46,409 bases of DNA from positions 1 to 46,409 of the IMG/VR virus record IMGVR_UViG_3300047554_001102; one strand, given 5' to 3'. Shown piece after piece: positions 7,679-25,415 of the stretch (positions within the stretch are counted from its first letter, which is position 1; the number at the start of each line of letters is the position of its first letter). Source of the stretch: a virus. The notes beneath the pieces were generated by a model that did no database searches, was not told where the DNA came from, and saw nothing but the letters and a program-made list of their open reading frames with translations. A program made the translations under genes and the position numbers.

Positions 7679-9205
7679 CTAATCTATTCTAACGGCCTTA
7701 ACACTTAGCAAAGACTCTAATCTATCTATAGAAATGTCAGCATAGCTAGGCGATAATTCTATACCATACCCCACCCGACCAGTACCAGCCGCAGCAATGA
7801 GGGTAGAACCCGATCCACAAAAACAGTCAACAACTAGATCACCTTTATCACTAAAAGCCTTTATAAACCATTCTGGGAGTTTATGGGGAAAGGCTGCCTG
7901 ATGTCCATTATTTTTGTTTACCGTATGTACTTTAAGCACGTTACTAGGGAGGGCAGTCCCCGATACCAGATCGCTATTATCTAGCACAGGCATATTCCAA
8001 TGAGTGCCATTGCCCCCATCTATTCTCGCTTCGCCCTCACCACTGAAACAATAGTCAGACTCATGCCCTACACGCTCAGGGTAGAAGCGTTCGATTGCCT
8101 TATCTGATTTGGTAAAGTGAAACACAGGCTCAAAGCCGTTCTTAAAACGATTAGGCCAACTCCCAGGCGCGGCATTGCGTACCCAACAAAACTCATCTAC
8201 GAAACACCAGCCCCAGTCATCTACATGGCTTATAGTAAGCTTTTTGACGTATAAATGCCTTTGCCCTTGTTCGCAGTGTTCTTTGATATTTAAGAAGTAA
8301 CTACCGCTATTAGATAGCCACAATTTAATGTTTTTTTGCACACTCTCAAACCATTTACTATAGCCGTCTGCTGGTATTGGTTTAAAGCCACTACTTTCGT
8401 CATATTTACGTTGACTGGCATAGGGCGGTGAAGTAAATAAAATATCAATCTTGCGATCGCCTAACAGTTTGTCCCACACAGCTAAGTCTAGGCAATCACC
8501 GACAATAATCCTATGATCGCCTATCGCCCATAGATCGCCTGGCTTAGAACTCGGCTCGATTATCTTGTCTAAGCTGTCTAAAATTTGATCGTCTAAGTTA
8601 TCAGTTACACTATCATCTAGATTATTGTCTAATTCACTGTTTAAATCGTCATTAAAGCTTGTCTGTTGACTGTCATTATAGATACTATCTAAACTATCAA
8701 AACAAGCTAGATTTGTTACGTTGTTTTGTAATAAATAATCACTTTGGGCCGCTAACGCCACACTATCAAAAAGCCCAAAAACCACCCCATCCCCCAACGC
8801 TGCAACAGTAGTGGCATTGTGGTCTATGCTGTAGGCTATAGCGGCGGCTTGACTATCTGATTTAGCGATAGTTGCTGGCACTAACCAGTCAATTACTTTG
8901 TCGCCTTTTAAATCTTTACTAACACCATTAGGCGGATTGTTGCGGTCTTTTTTAAATAAGGTTTTAAGGCAATTAAGGCTACGATCATGCCCTTCTACCA
9001 ACGTAAACATGACCGTTTTATCGGCTAAAAGCTGGTCAATTGAAAGGTCTTTATACTTATCATCTAGGAATACCAGATCAACCTGGATAGGGTCGCGGAA
9101 GCCGTGATAGTCAATACTGGCTAACGTGTTACTGGTAGAGTGCTTTTTGGAGTTATTGACAAGGCCTTCTAGTCGGGATAAGGGTATAAGGCGATATTCA
9201 AGCAT
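7679..9205 (-). CDS. ParB-like nuclease domain fused to class-beta DNA methyltransferase
   Basis: A 508-residue protein. Residues 1-130 resemble the ParB/sulfiredoxin fold (FRDPIQVD, LVEGHDRSLNCL). An Asp/Leu/Asn-rich low-complexity linker covers about 165-215. The methyltransferase follows, with the catalytic motif TSPPY (258-262) before the SAM motif FCGSG (462-466), the class-beta order. TSPPY favours N4-cytosine methylation, although N6-adenine is possible. ParB-methyltransferase fusions are common in phages and usually have no restriction partner, and none is visible here. A likely role is protecting phage DNA from host restriction. Confidence 0.9.
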   Translation of the reverse strand: MLEYRLIPLSRLEGLVNNSKKHSTSNTLASIDYHGFRDPIQVDLVFLDDKYKDLSIDQLLADKTVMFTLVEGHDRSLNCLKTLFKKDRNNPPNGVSKDLKGDKVIDWLVPATIAKSDSQAAAIAYSIDHNATTVAALGDGVVFGLFDSVALAAQSDYLLQNNVTNLACFDSLDSIYNDSQQTSFNDDLNSELDNNLDDSVTDNLDDQILDSLDKIIEPSSKPGDLWAIGDHRIIVGDCLDLAVWDKLLGDRKIDILFTSPPYASQRKYDESSGFKPIPADGYSKWFESVQKNIKLWLSNSGSYFLNIKEHCEQGQRHLYVKKLTISHVDDWGWCFVDEFCWVRNAAPGSWPNRFKNGFEPVFHFTKSDKAIERFYPERVGHESDYCFSGEGEARIDGGNGTHWNMPVLDNSDLVSGTALPSNVLKVHTVNKNNGHQAAFPHKLPEWFIKAFSDKGDLVVDCFCGSGSTLIAAAGTGRVGYGIELSPSYADISIDRLESLLSVKAVRID

Positions 9206-15713: not shown

Positions 15714-16814
15714 CTAGTGAGAAATGGTTAAACCGTTGGATCGACGAATTAATTGAATCTTGCTAACAGCTATCTGCCCTAATCGTTTCCAATTGGCATC
15801 GTTAATAGATAGCAGTTTTTTAGTGTCTCCACCAACATAGCCGATTCCTTTAGGAGAAAAAACTAAATCCCCCTTGCGAAACTCCTTATATCTTGTAGTG
15901 GAGCCACCATACTTACGTCGCTTACCACCCTTGGCAGTAACCATAGAATGAAGTTGACGACGGCTAATGGGAGGACGTTTGACGATGGCAAAAGGAGAAT
16001 TCGTTACTTCAACAGAGCCTTTCCATTCGTGGCCATGCCCGTTAGAGGTATGGAATGGCAAATAATCTAAAAACCGAAAACAGGCGAGAGTAATTCCATC
16101 GTTAGCATGGCTTTCTGGAGTTTGTTCTGCCTTATTTTTGGATTTTTCTAATCCCAAATGCTTCCTCAGATTATATGTTTGCCAACCAAATTTGGTATGA
16201 ACCGTAGCAATCCTAGCAAGTTGTTCGATAGCCCAGTTTTGACCGATCATAACGGGAGAAAAGCTTTTACCTGATTTAGCTCCTTTCCTACCTGAAGTCA
16301 GTTCTATATCAGCTTTGACGTATTCAAAATAAATATCTGTAACTGGGTAGATTTTGGCTAGTTCAGAAACAACTCTCAGTTCGAGTTGACGATTAGCTCT
16401 TATGGAAGGGGCTAACTTATTTTTTCTTCTATTGGAGAATCGTTCTTGACGATGCGCCCTACGGTTAAAAGGAATGTTACGGTTGATTCGCCGTCCCCTT
16501 CTAAGTTTTCGCATCATTCGCCGATTGTCCATTCGTTTCCTTATCTGCTTAAAGGGAAGCTCTAAATGGGCTTTCCATAAGGTAAAAAGAGAAGATTGAA
16601 CACCGATTCCAGAAAATAATTTACCTGGGTCAATGCCAATAGAAATTGGTTGAGTCTTATCGTCGGAAGACTCGGTAGTTAACTGGACATAGAAAATATC
16701 TAAGTCGTTAAATTTGCCGATAGCTTTTCCTTCTTTGATCCACCGCCTAGCCCGACTTGGTTTAGTTGGCATTAACGGCTTTCCGTCTTTTGAAATAACA
16801 GGAACTCTTGGCAT
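15714..16814 (-). CDS. isrB: IsrB-type RNA-guided RuvC nickase (HNH-less IscB relative)
   Basis: 366 residues with the order that defines IscB/IsrB proteins: a PLMP domain (GKPLMP, residues 11-16), RuvC-I SIGIDPG (D62), an Arg-rich bridge helix (about 92-133), RuvC-II IYFEYVKAD (E164), and RuvC-III ESHANDG (H236, D239). Only about 70 residues separate RuvC-II from RuvC-III and contain no HNH motif, so it is IsrB rather than IscB. IsrB proteins nick the non-target strand of DNA using an omega RNA encoded just upstream. All catalytic residues are present. No transposase gene is adjacent, so any element would be mobilised in trans. Confidence 0.9.
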   Translation of the reverse strand: MPRVPVISKDGKPLMPTKPSRARRWIKEGKAIGKFNDLDIFYVQLTTESSDDKTQPISIGIDPGKLFSGIGVQSSLFTLWKAHLELPFKQIRKRMDNRRMMRKLRRGRRINRNIPFNRRAHRQERFSNRRKNKLAPSIRANRQLELRVVSELAKIYPVTDIYFEYVKADIELTSGRKGAKSGKSFSPVMIGQNWAIEQLARIATVHTKFGWQTYNLRKHLGLEKSKNKAEQTPESHANDGITLACFRFLDYLPFHTSNGHGHEWKGSVEVTNSPFAIVKRPPISRRQLHSMVTAKGGKRRKYGGSTTRYKEFRKGDLVFSPKGIGYVGGDTKKLLSINDANWKRLGQIAVSKIQLIRRSNGLTISH

Positions 16815-17605: not shown

Positions 17606-18474
17606 TATTTACCCTCCGCTTTGGCGATCGCAGTTTTAGCATTGCTTAGTCCGTCAACGACACGACCATAGACAACGCCCTCATTTTCAACGGCATAAAC
17701 AAAGCCTTTCAACGCCTCCAACAACTCAGGAGCGGCGGCGATCAAGTTAAGTTGTGTCTCGGTGACATAAGCAACACGGAAACTTGAGGAGACATCTTCA
17801 CCAGGCTTTAACCAACAATCTAATCGTGCATCCTCATCTCCGACACGATCGGAAGCCATGCGTAACGTTACTTGCCAACTTTGTTCAGTCTTAGTCTCAA
17901 GTTTTGCGGCATCCGCTTTCATGATCGCTTCCTCGCCCAACTCAAAAAGCTCTGCATCACCATCGCTGTTGAGGCGGTTTGCATTTTGGTAAGCGTGTAA
18001 TGCCTCTAGCAGGTGATCATGGGCCACTTGTTGTTGCTCAAAACTTCCCGTAGCGAGTAGAGTGCCATAGTTTTTTGTGGCAGACACTAAATCATCAATC
18101 GTTGCATCGGCCGACTTGCAAATCATCTCCATCACATCTGAAACATGGGAGTCGGGTTGGTCTTCCCGTAACGCCCCGCATTCTGGGCAAGAATCTTCTG
18201 ACTTGGGGTGAATATACTCTTTTGCACATTCACAATCCCAATACTCACAGGTTAAATGATGACCGCTACCACCGTCCTTAATGCCCCGTACAGCCGCGAA
18301 AACGTCCTGCCATAGGTGAAGTCCCAAAACCGTCCTCGTAGAGCTAGGATACGCCTCTAAATGCTCTGCCAAGGCTGTCAACGTTGCAACCATCTCAGGT
18401 AGCTTGTTTAAGATCGCTATCGTATCAAAGCCTTGCTCTGTAAGCTTTTTATCTATTGAATGTAAGTGAATCAT
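17605..18474 (-). CDS. Hypothetical protein with zinc ribbon and phage-type C-terminal motif (289 aa)
   Basis: A zinc-ribbon-like cluster, CEYWDCECAKEYIHP with CPEC, lies at about residues 76-97. The middle is helical and acidic. The C-terminus, LIAAAPELLEALKGFVYAVENEG followed by AKTAIAKAEGK, is a short motif found at the ends of many phage accessory proteins. The ATG has GGATTAATCGTA just before it. First gene of the leftward transcript running from region R2. Function unknown. Confidence 0.7.
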   Translation of the reverse strand: MIHLHSIDKKLTEQGFDTIAILNKLPEMVATLTALAEHLEAYPSSTRTVLGLHLWQDVFAAVRGIKDGGSGHHLTCEYWDCECAKEYIHPKSEDSCPECGALREDQPDSHVSDVMEMICKSADATIDDLVSATKNYGTLLATGSFEQQQVAHDHLLEALHAYQNANRLNSDGDAELFELGEEAIMKADAAKLETKTEQSWQVTLRMASDRVGDEDARLDCWLKPGEDVSSSFRVAYVTETQLNLIAAAPELLEALKGFVYAVENEGVVYGRVVDGLSNAKTAIAKAEGK

Positions 18475-18507
18475 TACGATTAATCCCTAAAAACTGATTA
18501 CTGTAGC

Positions 18508-18537
18508 AATCTAATCATTTTTGATTGTAGTTGTCAA
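18508..18537 (-). promoter_or_regulatory. Leftward promoter at the R2 boundary
   Basis: On the minus strand, TTGACA (18537-18532), an 18-base spacer and TAGATT (18513-18508), about 30 bases before the ATG at 18474. The -35 context is GCTTGACAACT. Confidence 0.7.
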
Positions 18538-19229
18538 GCTCGCAACCAACAGCCACAAATACCAGCAGAGAAAATGTGATTATATGATTAAATAGTGTGC
18601 ATTAGTAAAAGTATAATATATTATTAATATATTATTATTATTATTATATTTATTATTATTATTATCTTATTTATTCTCTATTTTCTCCTGTACCCTATAC
18701 CTCTTTCCCCCGTACTCTTGTTAGTATTACTCAGCACTATTCCTTGTTCTATCTTTTTTTCTATCCCTTACCCCGTAAGCTTTTCACTCTTTTTAATTCT
18801 TGTATGTATTTTTTCTCTCTCATTCCATTTTATTATCGTTTCTATAATACTGTACTGGGGCGTACTATCTCATTTTTACTCACTACTATCTCCGTATCCC
18901 ACCTATTCCCAGTACGTTCGATAATCTCCCTTTCTCTCAGGCTACATACACACACAAGACCCCAAAAAATGAAACTATTGCTGTGTAAGTGTTACAGTAT
19001 TTTATAGTTCTTAGAATAATACTGAGTAATGCTAACAAGCATACAGTTTGTCGCTATACTATAGCAATACATTTTCCCTTGCTGGTGTTTTTGCTTGACA
19101 ACTGTGTTATTATGGCAATGTAGCGAAAGATCGGAACGCCTCAAATAATGTTTGGCTACTTGCTTAGACTACGATTAATTCCTTTAAATGATGGCGGGGT
19201 TAAACACCTTGCTATTTTTTTTTGCAAGC
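18538..19229. other. Gene-free region R2 (TTA repeats, pyrimidine-rich; relative of R1)
   Basis: No credible gene. It contains an ACCAGC motif near 18557, a TTA/ATT-rich tract (about 18608-18665), about 290 bases strongly biased to C and T on the plus strand, a CACACACA stretch near 18948, CCCCAAAAAA, TTATAGTTCTTA (19002-19013), GCTAACAA (19031-19038), a GCTATA-C-TATAGC dyad near 19052, another ACCAGC motif near 19078 and a TTGACAACT box near 19093. It separates the leftward from the rightward transcription units. The shared order with R1 suggests duplicated control or replication regions. Confidence 0.55.
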
Positions 19230-19258
19230 TTGACAACTATAGTTATTAATGATTAAAT
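19230..19258 (+). promoter_or_regulatory. Rightward promoter of the recombination genes
   Basis: TTGACA (19230-19235), a 17-base spacer and TTAAAT (19253-19258). The dyad AACTATAGTT directly follows the -35 box. About 30 bases downstream is the GTG of the first rightward gene. Confidence 0.7.
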
Positions 19259-19292
19259 TGTGATTGTAGTTTCGTAATTGAGTGAATTAATC

Positions 19293-19442
19293 GTGTCTAA
19301 TAATGAGAATTGGATTGATTGCGCGGGGCGATCTGTTTTAGTGCCATCTAATGACCCACCAGAAGATTACATTGACGAGAGCGATCAGCCTGACCAGCTT
19401 GTTATTGGTTGGGTTGAACCGTTGTGTTTTGTTGAGTTTTAA
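19293..19442 (+). CDS. Small acidic protein (49 aa)
   Basis: GTG start behind GAATTAATC, encoding MSNNENWIDCAGRSVLVPSNDP and ending GWVEPLCFVEF. A small acidic beta-rich protein and the first gene of the rightward recombination transcript. Its start context matches four other GTG genes in the window, which supports it despite its size. Function unknown. Confidence 0.65.
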   Translation: MSNNENWIDCAGRSVLVPSNDPPEDYIDESDQPDQLVIGWVEPLCFVEF

Positions 19443-19470
19443 AGTAATTAAATTTAGTTAGGTGAAAACA

Positions 19471-20529
19471 ATGTTTAAGAAGGCTAAACGTGGCAGTAAA
19501 AAGCTAAAGCTATCCATTAACGGCCCGTCTGGATCGGGCAAAACTTACTCAATGTTATCAATTGCGGAGCATTTAGTTAGTGATAGCGACAAACCACTTG
19601 ATGAAAAAATTGCCGTGATCGATACTGAACATGAGGCGGCATTGCTTTATGCGGAGGAGTATTTTAATTTTGCTCATTGCAACCTCAAGCAGCATCATCC
19701 AACCAAGTATATTGACGCTATCAAAGAAGCTGCTGGTAATGGCTTTGAAGTTATCATTATTGATAGCCTAAGCCATGCTTGGTACGAAGCTCTGTCTCTC
19801 GTTGATAAAAGTGGTGGGGGGAATTTTAATGGTTGGGCAAAAGTGCAGCCATTACTAAGAGATTTGATTGAAACTATTTTGTCTTGTCCTTGCCATGTGC
19901 TGGTGTCAATGAGATCGGCATCTGATTACGTTGATGGCGTGGGTAAAAATGGAAAACCAACTAAAGTGAAAGTCGGCACTAAGGCTGTTTTTAAGGACGG
20001 TATCGAATTTGAATTTGATATTGCTGGTGAAATTGATGGAAACCATGAATTAACTATCAGTAAAAGCCGTTGTAAACCACTCCAAGATACAACTTGGTCT
20101 AACCCAGGCAAAGAACTTGCTGAACAATTAAAGCAATGGCTAGAACAGGGTGCTGAAAGTATTGAAGTGCGACCTGAGCAGGTGGTTGTCAAAACTGAGC
20201 CAGCAGTTAAAGCTGCTAAACCATTAACCCCCCGTGATCAAATTGCAATCACTTTCAAGAATCATTACACCAATTTAGGTGTGTCGCGTGATGTGGCGGT
20301 TAGTTTTATGAACTCCCTAGATGCTAATGCCAAACACCCCGCAGATTTAAAACCCGATGAACTTAAACAATGCCTTGATCTGATTAGTGAAGAGGCTAAA
20401 AAGATGCAAGCTTTGGCTGATAAGATTGCACAACCCAACAATCTTGTTGAACCTGAAGGTGATGCTTTATTGGCTGAACATTTACCAACCGATGATGGCG
20501 AAGCAGCCGTAAATTGGATGCACAAGTAA
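19471..20529 (+). CDS. RecA-like phage ATPase (Sak4/AAA_24 type, putative recombinase)
   Basis: 352 residues. Walker A is GPSGSGKT (18-25) and Walker B is FEVIIIDS (92-99). The RecA-like core continues to about residue 200 with the family's KSRCKPL segment, then a variable helical, acidic tail. Sak4-like proteins anneal single strands and act with SSB in phage recombination. ATG at 19471 is preferred over the upstream GTG because AGGTG sits eight bases before it. Exonuclease, SSB and Gp157 genes nearby support a recombination module. Confidence 0.8.
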   Translation: MFKKAKRGSKKLKLSINGPSGSGKTYSMLSIAEHLVSDSDKPLDEKIAVIDTEHEAALLYAEEYFNFAHCNLKQHHPTKYIDAIKEAAGNGFEVIIIDSLSHAWYEALSLVDKSGGGNFNGWAKVQPLLRDLIETILSCPCHVLVSMRSASDYVDGVGKNGKPTKVKVGTKAVFKDGIEFEFDIAGEIDGNHELTISKSRCKPLQDTTWSNPGKELAEQLKQWLEQGAESIEVRPEQVVVKTEPAVKAAKPLTPRDQIAITFKNHYTNLGVSRDVAVSFMNSLDANAKHPADLKPDELKQCLDLISEEAKKMQALADKIAQPNNLVEPEGDALLAEHLPTDDGEAAVNWMHK

Positions 20530-20538
20530 ACGATTAGC

Positions 20539-20569
20539 ACCAGCAAGAGGCTAATAACTTCTTGCTGGT
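20539..20569. repeat. Inverted pair of the ACCAGC motif
   Basis: ACCAGCAAGA (20539-20548) and TCTTGCTGGT (20560-20569), a perfect ten-base stem, fill most of the 50-base gap between the ATPase and exonuclease genes. Confidence 0.85.
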
Positions 20570-20579
20570 ATTTGTAACA

Positions 20580-21317
20580 ATGTTAGTGACAATTATTGAC
20601 TTAGAAACGACTGGTTTAGACCCACAAAAAGATGAACTTATTGAGGTGGGGGCCATTCTTTACTCGGTAGAGCATCAAATAGTTTTGCAGCAGTTTTCCT
20701 CCTTATACCCAGTAAAAGAAAACCCCCAAGAGCTTATCAACAGGATTCCAGTAACGGCAAGTAATAAGGCATTTTCAAGCAGGGCTATTTGTTACTCCGA
20801 CCAAAAGATTCCGCTAAGGATTGAATACTTATTCTTTTCTGAAATGGTTCGGCGTGGAGAGTTTTTAATTGCTCACAACGCCAAATTTGACAAGTCTTGG
20901 TTGGAAGAGTTTTTTGAGGTAGAGGGATATACAAAACCATGGCTCTGCACCTACGAAGACTTTATCTGGCCCCGCAACCATCAAAAAACTAACTTGATTA
21001 ACACTTGCTTAAATCATGGCATTGCAGTTACTAAAGCCCATCGTGCATTATCTGATTGCCAATTGATTGCCGAACTGTTTGATCGGGCTGATAATTTGCA
21101 GGGCTTGTTTGATGTGGCGATCGCTCGTTCAAAAGAGCCACTTCTAACTGTCCTTGCTGGTGTTGATTACGATACCCGTCAACTTGCACAAGACGCTAAG
21201 TTCTATTGGAGTTTTTGTGACAGTGCTGGCAAAAAAGTTTGGCAAAAACAACTAAAACAATCCGACCTTATCAAAGAATCAGTCAACTGGGGGTTTGGCT
21301 ATGAAATCTTACATTGA
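20580..21317 (+). CDS. DEDDh-family 3'-5' exonuclease (DnaQ-like)
   Basis: 245 residues with all three exonuclease motifs: IIDLETTGLDP near the N-terminus, FLIAHNAKFDKSW in the middle and HRALSDCQLIAELFD (DEDDh type). The C-terminal 60 residues may contact DNA. The ATG at 20580 is chosen because the motif starts four residues later. It lacks an obvious ribosome site because an inverted repeat fills the leader. It probably supplies proofreading or end processing for recombination or replication. An ACCAGC motif lies in the gene near 21154. Confidence 0.85.
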   Translation: MLVTIIDLETTGLDPQKDELIEVGAILYSVEHQIVLQQFSSLYPVKENPQELINRIPVTASNKAFSSRAICYSDQKIPLRIEYLFFSEMVRRGEFLIAHNAKFDKSWLEEFFEVEGYTKPWLCTYEDFIWPRNHQKTNLINTCLNHGIAVTKAHRALSDCQLIAELFDRADNLQGLFDVAIARSKEPLLTVLAGVDYDTRQLAQDAKFYWSFCDSAGKKVWQKQLKQSDLIKESVNWGFGYEILH

Positions 21318-21558
21318 ACAATTCCTACAACCAACCCACCGCCGCGAACGTGATTTAGTTTTTAATATAGAGGCTTATGCTCGAATTACAGGTCAATGGC
21401 CCAACAGAGGGATTTGTCCCTACTGTGGACAAGAAGGAACACTGCCAAAAAATAGCACCACTACAAGGTGTGACAACAAACATTGCCAAAGCAAAAAAAT
21501 ACGGGACAGGCCGAAGAAAGCGGCTAAACGGCGTAAGCAAAAAAGCCCAAACAATTAA
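21301..21558 (+). CDS. Zinc-finger protein, N-terminal part (probable frameshift)
   Basis: Starts MKSYIEQFLQPTHRRERDLVF, overlapping the exonuclease stop by 17 bases. It holds CPYC and, about 20 residues later, CDNKHC, a zinc-binding set. After an A7 run (21493-21499) the frame turns into a very basic stretch and stops. Shifting +1 at that run gives a continuous zinc-ribbon protein ending at 21730, so this is probably the first half of one gene. Confidence 0.55.
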   Translation: MKSYIEQFLQPTHRRERDLVFNIEAYARITGQWPNRGICPYCGQEGTLPKNSTTTRCDNKHCQSKKIRDRPKKAAKRRKQKSPNN

Positions 21559-21730
21559 AAACAACTTAATTCAAGAATTGTTAGATTTGTTTGGTCAAAA
21601 ACCACTTAATTGCCGATGTGGTAACTGTAAATCAGGTGAGATTGTCGTCTGCGAGAAGTGTTGGCAGTTAAAGCCCTATTGCTTAAACCAACCTTTTAAC
21701 TTAGTCTGCAATGATTGTTTGAAGCGTTGA
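21377..21730 (+). CDS. Zinc-ribbon protein, C-terminal part in the +1 frame
   Basis: Only the part after about 21490 looks coding: KKAQTIKNNLIQELLDLFGQK, then CRCGNCK, VCEKCW, YCLNQ and CNDC, two zinc-binding pairs. The ATG at 21377 lies inside the overlapped region and has no ribosome site. The segment is best read as the continuation of the 21301 gene after a +1 shift at the A7 run. Function unknown; a DNA-binding role would fit its neighbours. Confidence 0.5.
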   Translation: MLELQVNGPTEGFVPTVDKKEHCQKIAPLQGVTTNIAKAKKYGTGRRKRLNGVSKKAQTIKNNLIQELLDLFGQKPLNCRCGNCKSGEIVVCEKCWQLKPYCLNQPFNLVCNDCLKR

Positions 21731-21755
21731 CTTTTTGCTTGACAACTACTATAAT
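21727..21755 (+). promoter_or_regulatory. Strong promoter before the CRISPR-repeat-like element
   Basis: TTGACT (21727-21732), a 17-base spacer and a consensus TATAAT (21750-21755). The predicted start is about 21762, just before the repeat-like sequence. A TTGACAACT box also overlaps the spacer. Confidence 0.7.
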
Positions 21756-21761
21756 TGTCTA

Positions 21762-21857
21762 AGGACGTTAAGCATAATCCCTATGAGGGGTTGAAACTCT
21801 GTACTTTGTTTACTTATTTTCAATCGTCCTATTAATCCCTATGAGGGCTGGCATTCT
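21762..21857 (+). CRISPR. Short CRISPR-repeat-like pair (solitary or degenerate unit)
   Basis: Two copies of TAATCCCTATGAGGG (21775-21789 and 21833-21847) lie 58 bases apart. The first ends GGTTGAAAC, giving AATCCCTATGAGGGGTTGAA-AC, like the 3' half of many cyanobacterial CRISPR repeats, with a hairpin CCCT-ATG-AGGG. The second is preceded by TTTTCAATCGTCCTAT, like a repeat 5' half, and degenerates after AGGG. About 19 bases lie between. A promoter starts right at the first copy and no cas genes are in the window. It could be a phage solitary repeat or a CRISPR remnant. Confidence 0.45.
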
Positions 21858-21882
21858 CGTTATTCAATGTCAGGTAAAATTC

Positions 21883-22080
21883 ATGCTTAACCCAGACGGA
21901 TTTGACTCAAAACTCATGCTTTCACATGAAGATATTGAACGTACAAAAAAACGTTCAGATGATTATAAACGGGGTTATTCTCAAGGCTATTGGCATCAAC
22001 CTAAAGAAGAACCAGAAAACCCTGAATACATGAAGGGATATGATTCTGGATGGGATGACAAAGTAATGGATCGAAATTAA
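21883..22080 (+). CDS. Small hypothetical protein with Gly-Tyr motifs (65 aa)
   Basis: Starts MLNPDGFDSKLMLSHEDIER; the ATG at 21883 is preferred to one inside the repeat-like element because CAGG precedes it. The second half has spaced aromatic/Gly motifs (YKRGYSQGYW, YMKGYDSGWDD). A charged helical protein. Function unknown. Confidence 0.6.
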   Translation: MLNPDGFDSKLMLSHEDIERTKKRSDDYKRGYSQGYWHQPKEEPENPEYMKGYDSGWDDKVMDRN

Positions 22081-22103
22081 CTAACACTAAAAAGGATTTT
22101 ATT

Positions 22104-22370
22104 ATGAAAGCCATCATTACAAAAGTTGTTTGCAATGCAGATTGTCCCCTAAATATGCGTTTCTTTGGTGTTTTGCCTCCAAAACTAGAAGAATCTCATC
22201 CGCCAGTGCGATGGGATGTTTGCGAAAACGATTATCAGGGGATGGTTGAGTTTACTACATCTGAGATTTTTGAGCATAAAAAATATCAACCCGTAGAGGT
22301 TGAGTCTTGCGATATTCTCACAATGCTAAACGTTAAACAGCCAGAAACTTGGTATTACCAAGAAGCCTAA
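22104..22370 (+). CDS. Hypothetical protein (88 aa)
   Basis: MKAIITKVVCNADCPLNMRFF with AAGGA before the ATG. A small alpha/beta protein with four Cys residues spread along it, two in the N-terminal CNADC. Cotranscribed with the gene before it. No family recognised. Confidence 0.65.
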   Translation: MKAIITKVVCNADCPLNMRFFGVLPPKLEESHPPVRWDVCENDYQGMVEFTTSEIFEHKKYQPVEVESCDILTMLNVKQPETWYYQEA

Positions 22371-22380
22371 CATAATTAAA

Positions 22381-22534
22381 TATCTAGCCTACTACCAGGA
22401 TGGAATCGGGTAGTGAATAATCAATAACAATCACCCTCCGATTAAGTGTGACTGGTAACACAGCAACATCACTTAAGGCTCGGTAAAAGTTGTAAAGGCT
22501 GTGAGACCCGCCCCTGTCAGGAATGGGGGCTTTT
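22381..22534 (+). ncRNA. Structured leader or small RNA ending in an intrinsic terminator
   Basis: This 188-base gap carries ACTACC (22391-22396) pairing with GGTAGT (22409-22414), AAGTG (22444-22448) pairing with CACTT near 22470, and a terminator GCCCC (22510-22514) with GGGGC (22526-22530) followed by TTTT. It ends about 25 bases before the GTG of an XRE regulator. It could be an attenuating leader or the terminator of the upstream genes; no riboswitch class is recognised. Confidence 0.4.
22510..22534 (+). terminator. Intrinsic terminator before the XRE gene
   Basis: GCCCC and GGGGC arms around TGTCAGGAATG, then TTTTAATT. It ends the rightward transcript of the exonuclease region or attenuates the next gene. 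Confidence 0.6.
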
Positions 22535-22558
22535 AATTATTAATAAGAGGATTTAATC

Positions 22559-22855
22559 GTGTCTAATTTGGCTATTGATAGCGAGGATTGTAATGTTTTT
22601 GATCATCTTGATTCAGTAATTGAAGAAGGCTATGCTCAACGACATAAAAAACTCGCCAAACTAATGCGAGAAACAAGACAAGCCACTGGACTAAAGCAAT
22701 CGGAACTAGCAGAACGATTAGACGTAACCCAGTCTTGGGTGTCAAAAATGGAATCAGGCTCAAACCATACTCTTGACAACCTTGTTGATTACTTTGAAGC
22801 GATGGGTTACAAAGTCAAGTTAACCGTTTATAAGCCAGAAGAGATTGAGCTTTAG
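22559..22855 (+). CDS. XRE-family helix-turn-helix regulator
   Basis: 98 residues, GTG start behind AAGAGGATTTAATC. The helix-turn-helix TGLKQSELAERLDVTQSWVSKMESG lies at about 43-67 and continues into NLVDYFEAMGYKVKLTVY, a form common in antitoxins and small phage regulators. No toxin gene is adjacent; its neighbour is the convergent integrase (stops one base apart). A regulator of integration or of the adjacent genes is plausible. Confidence 0.8.
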   Translation: MSNLAIDSEDCNVFDHLDSVIEEGYAQRHKKLAKLMRETRQATGLKQSELAERLDVTQSWVSKMESGSNHTLDNLVDYFEAMGYKVKLTVYKPEEIEL

Positions 22856-23899
22856 TCAACTTAATTTAGTCATAATTCTATCAAAAGCCTTCTGGTGAGT
22901 ATCATCATCAAGCCATAAATTATACGTTGCGGTATGGACAGTGTGACTATGCCGCATTTGTTTTGCGGCTAATCTACTATCTAGCCCCAATTCAATCGTC
23001 CTTCTGGCCCAACAATGTCTAAGCGCATAGGGCGGAAAGGGGATGTGGTTGCGTTGAAATATTTTGGTGATGCGATCGCCATAGTCCCGATAATATTTTG
23101 CTTTTTGGCAATTAGGTAAACAACAATCAGTCAAATTAAATTTATCAAACCAGTCGGGATAGAAGGGCCAAACTTTCCCCGCCCCCCGTTTGCCCTCGGT
23201 GACATAACAAATTCGATTCTCTACCAGGTAATCCAGATCAACAAAAAATAATTCATGGTTCCGCAAGCCGAATGTTGCCAGCATCCCGTAAGCCCATTTG
23301 CTTGACGGGTATTTAATTTTGTCGTACCACTCCACAATCGCATCATCTGATGGCAATAATCTGGGATTGACTTTACTGGCTGAATAATTCCCCCGCAATA
23401 GCCCAACATCTAAATCTAACCGCAAAAACTTAGCCAACCCACCCAAAATCACACAAGCTTTTTTGCGGGTAGAGGTATTTGGCTTAGTTTTTGTCTCGAT
23501 AAACTCCTGTAACACTTTACTGGTAACGATCTTGTCACTGTCGAACTGGCTTAAAACGGATAAATAATCATGCTCCCATGTGCCTAGGCTTTGAATCGTC
23601 GGTAGATGCTCAATAAAATACTGCTCTTTAAATCGGGCGATCGCATCCTTAAAGGTCAGCTTACAAATACCAGCAGGGGAAGTTTTATCTGGCCAGGTAA
23701 ATGTCCCATCTTCCAATTGAATCGCTAAAACCAACGCCCTATCTTTTGCTTTCTCCCATCCTATCGGGTCACTCGACAACCCTGTTGCTATCCTTTGCTG
23801 GTGTTTATTCTCTTTTCCACTCCCAGGCTTAGGGGGTAATGTAGCGACTAAGTATAACCACCCATTTCTGTCCACTATCGTCACGTTTTTTACTTTCAT
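22856..23899 (-). CDS. int: Tyrosine-family integrase
   Basis: 347 residues. The catalytic domain shows Arg I (GLRNHE, R213), a Lys-containing strand (EGKRGAGKVW), box II LRHCWARR (R294), H317 in MRHSH and the nucleophile in TATYNLW (Y326). The usual first His of box II is Tyr (PPYALRH). The N-terminal 80 residues resemble an arm-binding domain, then a core-binding region. It starts beside attP, as expected of a temperate phage integrase that uses a tRNA gene. Confidence 0.9.
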   Translation of the reverse strand: MKVKNVTIVDRNGWLYLVATLPPKPGSGKENKHQQRIATGLSSDPIGWEKAKDRALVLAIQLEDGTFTWPDKTSPAGICKLTFKDAIARFKEQYFIEHLPTIQSLGTWEHDYLSVLSQFDSDKIVTSKVLQEFIETKTKPNTSTRKKACVILGGLAKFLRLDLDVGLLRGNYSASKVNPRLLPSDDAIVEWYDKIKYPSSKWAYGMLATFGLRNHELFFVDLDYLVENRICYVTEGKRGAGKVWPFYPDWFDKFNLTDCCLPNCQKAKYYRDYGDRITKIFQRNHIPFPPYALRHCWARRTIELGLDSRLAAKQMRHSHTVHTATYNLWLDDDTHQKAFDRIMTKLS

Positions 23900-23926
23900 C
23901 GTGGCTTAAATTTGGCTTAAATCAGG

Positions 23927-23951
23927 GCCAATTGGTAAGGCAGAGGTCTGC
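23927..23951 (+). other. Cys-tRNA 5'-half-like sequence
   Basis: A 25-base segment matching the D arm and first anticodon-stem strand of a cyanobacterial Cys-tRNA (GCCAATTGGTAAGGC followed by AGAGGTCTGC). It is in the opposite orientation to the 3' half at 24047-24090 and diverges right at GGTCTGC, the bases shared by both halves. Confidence 0.6.
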
Positions 23952-24046
23952 TCAGGGCAGAGAATCTGTTACTGACGACAAATAATTTGTTACGGTGACA
24001 TCAATCCGTTACTGATGACAAATAGTGTGTGACTGTACAAAAAAGA

Positions 24047-24090
24047 AGGCGGCACCCGGATTTGAACCGGGGGTGGAGATTTTGCAGACC
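24047..24090 (-). other. Cys-tRNA 3' half (attP core)
   Basis: On the minus strand, GGTCTGCAAAATC contains the GCA anticodon in its CTGCAAA loop, followed by a short variable loop, a complete T arm (CCCGG-TTCAAAT-CCGGG) and acceptor strand TGCCGCC with U73. No 5' acceptor half lies upstream in this orientation, so it is not an intact tRNA gene. Phage attP sites typically carry such a 3' tRNA segment to restore the host gene on integration. Confidence 0.8.
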
Positions 24091-24153
24091 TAAACTCGAC
24101 GACATCTAAATACTGACTATACAGGAGGTTGACAACTCTGTAAATTAATTGGC

Positions 24154-24621
24154 TTAAGTTTGGCCTGGATTTAGCTTTTTAAACATTTCTGCGATAGTTT
24201 TTGCCCATTCCACTTGTTCCCTCATCTTATCAACACTTATCACCATTAGTTTAATAGCCAATGGTGCTATATCCTCTGGTTCGAGGTGCTTTATAACGAT
24301 ACTCTCAATCATGCTTTTGTCTAGGGGTTGTCTCACGGCTTGTTGGTAAGCCTTACTGGCTTCTTTAATGTCTTTAATCTCATCATTTTCAAAATAATAA
24401 TTCAATTCATCAAGGGTGACATTCCACATCTTAGCAATAGTTTTCATGTTGTCCCACTCAGGCGTAGAGGTCTTTTTGGGGCTTGTCATCGTTTGAATAA
24501 AGCCGTGAGAAACCGTATTACCACCTAACTCAGAAAACCACTTTGCCAGTTGTTCTTGGGTCATACCAAGCTCATCTTGCTTATCTACAAATAATTTAAT
24601 TAATTTTTGTCGGTTTAACAT
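24154..24621 (-). CDS. CI-like repressor (XRE helix-turn-helix)
   Basis: About 155 residues from the ATG at 24621 (MLNRQKLIKLFVD). The helix-turn-helix contains MTQEQLAKWFSELGG and GNTVSHGFIQTMTS. The C-terminal half is helical with no LexA-type peptidase motif, so it is unlikely to be self-cleaving. It has a divergent promoter pair with the rightward genes at 24651-24746 and lies next to int and attP. This is the position and size of a lysogeny repressor. The upstream in-frame start would extend past its own promoter. Confidence 0.7.
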   Translation of the reverse strand: MLNRQKLIKLFVDKQDELGMTQEQLAKWFSELGGNTVSHGFIQTMTSPKKTSTPEWDNMKTIAKMWNVTLDELNYYFENDEIKDIKEASKAYQQAVRQPLDKSMIESIVIKHLEPEDIAPLAIKLMVISVDKMREQVEWAKTIAEMFKKLNPGQT

Positions 24622-24770: not shown

Positions 24771-25415
24771 GTGTCAAAACAAAGACATAATAACGATGCC
24801 TACTACACCCACGCTGGGTTGGTTAAGACATTACTGGATAATGTGCCGATTTGTGGTGATGTATGTGAACCCTGTGCGGGGGAGGGGCATATTGCATATC
24901 AGTTACTTAATGTTCCCCTTGATGTGGTTAGTGCAGACATCGATCCCAACGCTGGCTATGCCATGTATGAGGGTGAGGATATGACAAGTCCCGATACATG
25001 GAAAAAGATTCTGTGGGATTTGGATAAAACTGGCTTTGACTGGACAGTAACCAACCCACCCTACCGTCAGCCTGACTGCCAAAAAATTATTGAAAATGCC
25101 TGGGAACATTCAAAAATTGGTGTTGCAATGTTGCTGCGGTTGACTTATTTGGAGCCTTGCGCTTTATCTGCTAAGGATGGGGCTAATTGGCTTGCACGTT
25201 ATCCCGATCGCCCGTTGGGGGATGCCTTTGATGGTCGCGCCCCGTTCCTAAAATCAGCACCACTTTCCCATCTGCTGGTATTTAATCCCCGTCCCCAATT
25301 TCGCACCGATACTAAGGGGACTGATAACACAACCGTTGCTTGGTTTGTCTGGCAAAAAGAGTGGGCTGATAACACTCAAATTAAATTTATTACGGATTGG
25401 AAAACCAATGTTTAA
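24771..25415 (+). CDS. DNA N6-adenine methyltransferase-like protein
   Basis: 214 residues, GTG start behind GAGAGGATTAATC. The SAM motif is CEPCAGEGHIA (about 32-42) and the catalytic motif NPPY lies at 95-98 (TVTNPPYRQP), typical of N6-adenine methyltransferases. No specificity domain is obvious, so it may be a small phage methyltransferase of relaxed specificity. It is the first gene after the promoter opposite the repressor, so it is probably an early gene. Confidence 0.85.
   Translation: MSKQRHNNDAYYTHAGLVKTLLDNVPICGDVCEPCAGEGHIAYQLLNVPLDVVSADIDPNAGYAMYEGEDMTSPDTWKKILWDLDKTGFDWTVTNPPYRQPDCQKIIENAWEHSKIGVAMLLRLTYLEPCALSAKDGANWLARYPDRPLGDAFDGRAPFLKSAPLSHLLVFNPRPQFRTDTKGTDNTTVAWFVWQKEWADNTQIKFITDWKTNV

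Follow-up and report, generated by a model that had tools for sequence, protein, structure and literature searches.

The window analysed here is a 46-kb virus record (46,409 nt) with genes for a terminase, an integrase, an SSB, a primase and a baseplate protein, and it carries, behind a promoter-like site, two halves of a cyanobacterial CRISPR repeat laid out like one type I-D crRNA unit. The reading we prefer, which in our judgement has about an even chance of being correct, is that the element is a phage mimic of one host I-D crRNA unit and most likely serves as a Racr-like decoy. Its two copies of TAATCCCTATGAGGG are identical over 15 nt and spaced 58 nt apart (Table 1). Copy 1, TAATCCCTATGAGGGGTTGAAAC, contains a Cas6-type hairpin, CCCTATGAGGG (21779-21789), followed by the 8-nt handle GTTGAAAC (21790-21797). 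Copy 2, with its core at 21833-21847, is preceded by TTTCAATCGTCCTATTAAT, and its hairpin, again CCCTATGAGGG (21837-21847), lacks the TTGAAAC handle. Copy 1 has lost its 5' half and copy 2 its 3' handle, and the remainder follows the order hairpin, 8-nt handle, 20-nt interval, 5' repeat half, hairpin. Judged by type I crRNA biogenesis, the retained pieces would correspond exactly to the parts of one crRNA unit. A CRISPR array has at least two full repeats and spacers of regular length, whereas this element has half repeats and a 20-nt interval.

Table 1. Positions of the element and of the features on its predicted transcript in the window.
Feature	Position	Strand	Basis or remark
Sigma-70-type promoter, TTGACT-N17-TATAAT	21727..21755	+	consensus 11/12
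Predicted RNA start and outer stem 5' strand, AGGACG	21762..21767	+	MFE fold, -10 box
GTTAAGCAT, 9-bp perfect complement of ATGCTTAAC (21883-21891)	21767..21775	+	complement contains the P0001 start codon
Copy 1, repeat 3' half: hairpin and handle	21775..21797	+	22/23 to TAATCCCTATGAGGGATTGAAAC
Guide-like linker TCTGTACTTTGTTTACTTAT	21798..21817	+	20 nt between copies
Copy 2, repeat 5' half and second hairpin	21818..21847	+	27/30 to SU2 repeat, 2-nt insertion
Outer stem 3' strand, CGTCCT	21825..21830	+	MFE fold pairing
Hairpin CTGGCATT...AATGTCAG	21848..21873	+	ends at possible Shine-Dalgarno of next ORF
P0001, 65-aa ORF, first gene of transcript	21883..22080	+	ORF call
88-aa ORF	22104..22370	+	family searches without match
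Intrinsic terminator, likely transcript end	22510..22530	+	terminator prediction

In local alignments against seven real cyanobacterial repeats, copy 1 scored 21-22 and copy 2 scored 17-22; the same alignment reached at most 15 in the rest of the window and at most 17 in 60 Markov shuffles. Ungapped comparison with the repeat 3' half gave 22/23 at position 21775 against a shuffle maximum of 17. The hairpin CCCTATGAGGGG taken alone was not significant, and significance arose because the flanking repeat halves were added. The best Rfam match in the region was CRISPR-DR5 (21767-21797), whose 25.4 bits are below the gathering score of 40, and the Rfam search at the gathering threshold returned nothing. 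The alignments bear out an earlier note on this DNA, which had described copy 1 as resembling the 3' half of a cyanobacterial CRISPR repeat and the second copy as keeping the 5' half; the interval from TTGAAAC to the second repeat-like start, given there as 19 bases, is 20 nt long. The promoter proposed in the same place also held up. With its boxes at 21727-21732 and 21750-21755, it agrees with the consensus at 11 of 12 positions and is the best of 20 sites in the neighbouring 5.8 kb (18400-24200), a region in which the total of promoter-like sites was not above the shuffle number. We infer that RNA is produced from this site; judged by the -10 box, it would start at about 21762, which coincides with the position near 21761 where a standard repeat ending at 21797 would begin.

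The similarity to cyanobacterial repeats extends beyond the hairpin, the point on which the earlier note had made its reading depend. The core CCCTATGAGGGNTTGAAAC was present at 69 GTDB genome loci, about half of them true arrays and mostly cyanobacterial; many are long arrays (Spirulina, Lyngbya, ESFC-1, SU2 and others) whose units measure 37 nt, for example GTTTCAACTACTATTAATCCCTATGAGGGATTGAAAC. In place of the GGGA of the arrays, the virus reads GGGG, and the exact GGGG form occurred nowhere else in the genomes and virus contigs searched. DR5 repeats are of type I-D (PMC4916379). An array with this core adjoins csc2/csc1 homologues in ESFC-1, the Lyngbya array and csc2/csc1 occupy successive stretches of one contig, and csc2 scored above cut-off in all six tested genomes having CCCTATGAGGGNTTGAAAC-core repeats. 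Repeats with this core belong to type I-D (DR5), and the host would presumably be a cyanobacterium with a type I-D system. When 1451 spacers were compared with the window for a host link, no convincing match emerged.

Searches of virus contigs gave 28 stretches with the repeat 3'-half pattern and 12 with a gapped pattern; matches were also present in 28 of 388 Cyanobacteriales genomes, mostly as ordinary arrays. Solitary elements sharing the design of the window and otherwise unrelated in sequence were found in the virus contigs L117, L120 and L132, with L139 doubtful. In two genomes, the same design has phage-structure-like genes around it, at L172 and L173 (whose narrower versions are L153 and L154), and we take these loci to be prophages. 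On chromosomes, it occurs beside cas genes at L174, L175, L176 and L177 (narrower versions L163, L164, L165 and L146). A -10-like box lies shortly upstream of the outer strand in all of the design-sharing elements save L132, where it is unclear, and a terminator-like hairpin lies 3' of hairpin 2 in L132, L146, L153, L154 and L163-L165. Within the L172/L173 pair, the hairpins, the handle and the guide (15 of its first 16 nt) are kept, the flanking DNA diverges more, and the terminators vary in a compensatory manner. We dropped an attP reading suggested by the L117 element, which adjoins its integrase gene, as not general; the element in the window is 1 kb from int.

The repeat family also appeared in other forms. 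One family of virus contigs (L107, L108, L109, L110, L111, L113, L115, L118 and L130) carries a single repeat half, AATCCCTACTAGGGATTGAAAC, inside a long stem (~27 bp in L107) and without a second hairpin; these elements are possibly Racrs of another design. Short CRISPR arrays whose repeats belong to the same family were present in the virus contigs L125, L126, L127, L129, L142 and L114/L116/L119. In Spirulina CCY15215, L206 lies upstream of the I-D regulator gene and has a degenerate hairpin 1, a terminator and a hairpin 2 that is exactly TAATCCCTATGAGGG, as in the window.

Where copy 1 misses its repeat 5' half, the RNA carries one strand of a predicted outer stem, and the partner is the linker-side strand; in the MFE fold, the two pair and enclose hairpin 1, the handle and the linker. 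The outer stem of the window itself is weak (shuffle p ~0.07), and the fold of the window was no more stable than those of shuffles. Summed over eight elements, the outer stems amounted to -108.9 kcal/mol, compared with -73.3 (sd 8.0) with permuted partners, and 2 of 20,000 partner permutations were as low as the actual pairing, a count in which the identity permutation may be contained. The outer stem is specific to each element, and its sequences are wholly different (AGCGCCA/TGGCGC, GGTCT/AGACC, CACTCTC/GAGAGTG, the palindrome GCGATCGC and GCCTTGA/TCAAGGC). Shuffle p values for single elements ranged from 0.0005 to 0.17. Control arrays mostly gave no outer-stem signal, and their combined p of 0.03 arose probably because repeat ends are mutually complementary. 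For six of nine elements, the predicted fold had hairpin 1 enclosed by the outer stem and hairpin 2 beyond it. The crRNA-like fold has a competitor, a longer fold with the leader paired to the start codon.

On the chromosomes, L174-L176 lie between a type I-D operon, with Csc2 and Csc1 above the NCBIfam cut-offs and Cas10d, and a conserved regulator of ~290 aa that was present in 15/15 genomes tested. The putative CreR-like RNAs of these Nostocales I-D loci occupy L174:7908-8072, L175:8001-8165 and L176:8001-8170. Their guides match sites of the type gtc followed by TGTAGTAAAGAAGTGA that lie ~95 nt upstream of hairpin 1 within the same intergenic region, at 15, 16 and 14 of 16 positions. The PAM of type I-D is GTN, which the GTC flank fits. 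Weaker guide matches were seen at L177 (a 9-nt seed with GTT) and at L201 (GTC, with a mismatch at position 6); the L177 seed had a local p of 0.02 and a P of 0.66 over all promoter regions searched, and is hence weak. The species of L174-L176 are related and represent one lineage rather than three independent cases. On this sequence basis, there is apparently CreR autoregulation in type I-D of Nostocales. CreR is known for I-B, I-E and V-A, and I-D is not among the subtypes named (PMC13131331).

As a decoy, the element would act through the host machinery. The phage promoter would start the RNA at the outer-stem strand, and host Cas6 would recognise hairpin 1 and cut its base, leaving the GUUGAAAC handle, a guide of ~20 nt and the second hairpin. 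The product would then load into host Cas6/Csc2/Csc1/Cas10d through hairpin and handle, and the decoy, by occupying the I-D Cas proteins of the host, would lower immunity. A mimic is supported by the repeat-half identity, the promoter-like site, the outer-stem pattern and the recurrence in phages and beside cas genes, whereas the fold competition, the weak stem of the window itself and the solitary rather than two-hairpin form of known Racrs count against it. Of the Racr-like reading in the earlier note, the phage context, the promoter, the repeat resemblance and the absence of cas genes stand (searches of the window found no cas-like protein), but the solitary repeat of a strict Racr does not. 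We regard the decoy as the most likely function because the guide matches nothing found.

Since the element is a two-hairpin crRNA-like unit, a guide-directed role is a serious rival: a phage-borne CreR/crlRNA whose guide steers host I-D Cascade to a promoter, that of the cas operon or of some other gene in host or prophage, so that it is repressed but not cleaved. Shmakov reportedly proposed in 2023 that phage mini-arrays repress effector genes. We consider such a role possible though rather unlikely, and the decoy about twice as probable. A decoy can do without a target, and direct experiments on phages provide its precedent; the precedent for guided repression is here architectural. That precedent is the same architecture at the I-D cas genes of the three Nostocales with their GTC-flanked matches, to which the weaker matches at L177 and L201 and the guide kept in L172/L173 may be added; the kept guide counts against a pure decoy, because a decoy would not need it. 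The target searches speak against the rival. The seed of the window guide, TCTGTACTTT, had 22 matches in 388 genomes, none of them near cas, in a sample from which the true host is perhaps absent, and the window contains no PAM-flanked target of its own guide. No nearby GTN-flanked seed match was found for the window, L117, L132, L139, L107, L172 or L173, and that of L120 was borderline (p 0.027 among the phage elements tested); phage guides matched nothing beyond chance in the 19 I-D promoter regions. These absences hold within the sample, which may not include the hosts of the virus contigs. Two candidates were rejected on the way: a recurring motif in I-D promoters (L209, L212), GTG followed by TCCGTAACTTG, was matched equally well by shuffled guides (P 0.52), and the prophage guide of G452/G475 was too AT-rich for the search of its host genomes, where a perfect PAM-plus-seed site was absent and the candidate sites lay within coding genes or, in one genome only, upstream of a toxin-antitoxin-like pair.

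The element is unlikely to be what is left of two repeats of a host or phage CRISPR array, decayed and now functionless. Each repeat is indeed reduced to half, and ordinary arrays exist in other cyanophages (L125, L126, L129; cyanophage N-1), but the 20-nt interval, the promoter placed exactly at the unit, the loss of just the dispensable halves and the design shared among unrelated phages with a self-specific outer stem do not fit a relic. The "complementary degeneracy" that the earlier note had counted against a working array is not supported as the mark of a broken one; it is better described as the retention of one crRNA unit, which also recurs beside cas genes and in which a strand that pairs back has taken the place of the lost 5' half. 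We give very little credence to a mini-array against competing phages with a guide matching another virus. Such interviral conflict is known from archaeal viruses (PMC6858448), and cyanophage N-1 has been proposed as a further case (PMC4916379), but the matches of the window guide in 2.9 million virus contigs had neither a GTN motif nor a cyanobacterial signature, and the published examples carry full repeats. Equally remote is a pair of operators for a phage repressor, for which one can cite the palindrome CCCTATGAGGG in two copies downstream of the promoter and an HTH gene nearby (22559-22855); the CRISPR-repeat similarity covers both flanks, the relatives change the loop as CRISPR repeats do while retaining the handle, and the window holds no further close copies.

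The transcript would also include P0001, and its leader offers an extension of the mimic. In random leaders, the chance of so long a complement over the P0001 AUG is ~0.001 (0.1%). With the leader complete, the predicted fold has the AUG at least 88% paired (97-100% for its second and third base); with the RNA trimmed back to the base of hairpin 1, the AUG becomes ~40-60% unpaired. The fold model suggests that Cas6 cutting could switch on P0001: the intact GUUAAGCAU (21767-21775) would pair with the start codon (21883-21891), and a Cas6 cut at hairpin 1 would release the 5' piece and open it. That the leader, besides being a mimic, senses Cas6, with P0001, a candidate anti-CRISPR, made only in hosts with matching CRISPR, strikes us as improbable, even if RacrIC1 and AcrIC5 on one transcript are a precedent for an RNA-protein pair (PMC10651486). 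P0001 had no match in PHROG or PADLOC, a single sub-threshold match in Pfam and no homologues among phage records. Neither the exonuclease nor the P0001 search among virus contigs, nor a DNA search among phages and plasmids, returned close relatives of the window.

Several neighbouring features were noted. The non-coding 150 nt ahead of the terminator (22380-22530) contain several inverted segments and had no Rfam match. Directly behind the transcript of the element, a small HTH protein is encoded (22559-22855), in a placement resembling that of Aca regulators of anti-CRISPR operons. A 366-aa protein (15714-16814, minus strand) has a strong RRXRR domain (E 1.9e-53), the N-terminal region in IscB/IsrB-type RNA-guided proteins, and two DNA methyltransferase-like genes (7679-9205, minus strand; 24771-25415, plus strand) are possibly anti-restriction.

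Racrs are promoter-driven repeat mimics in phages, and a survey found SRUs of all types save VI (PMC10651486). A Racr acts on its cognate CRISPR-Cas system as an inhibitor that binds Cas6/Cas7. The element in the window is likewise phage-borne and promoter-driven, mimics a host CRISPR repeat and is free of cas genes; its virus record and repeat alignment agree with the resemblance to a known repeat on a mobile element that marks SRUs. It differs in its two half-repeats, which together make up a single crRNA-like unit bearing an outer stem, whereas an SRU is a solitary full-length repeat with no partial copy within 100 bp. SRUFinder asks that a full match have a coverage of at least 90% and discards candidates with partial copies within 100 bp (PMC10651486), rules by which the element would escape listing. 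With CreR/crlRNA (PMC12737573, PMC13131331) it shares the degenerate mini-array and the single guide of a crRNA-like unit, a design also present beside Nostocales I-D cas genes, but CreR lies in a CRISPR-cas locus and this element on a phage contig, with no target among the genomes sampled. Cyanophage N-1 also carries DR5/type I-D repeats without cas genes, as five full 37-nt repeats with four spacers of 29-37 nt (PMC4916379). The mini-CRISPR arrays of archaeal viruses similarly have one guide and need host Cas proteins, but they consist of full host repeats with spacers against related viruses (PMC6858448).

Our analysis points to a class of two-hairpin, outer-stem phage crRNA mimics that published solitary-repeat searches apparently discarded. 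Next to I-D cas genes, elements of the same layout have a guide directed at the neighbouring intergenic region; a single RNA design may hence be used by hosts for autoregulation and by phages for counter-defence, and the chromosomal elements suggest CreR-like autoregulation in cyanobacterial type I-D.
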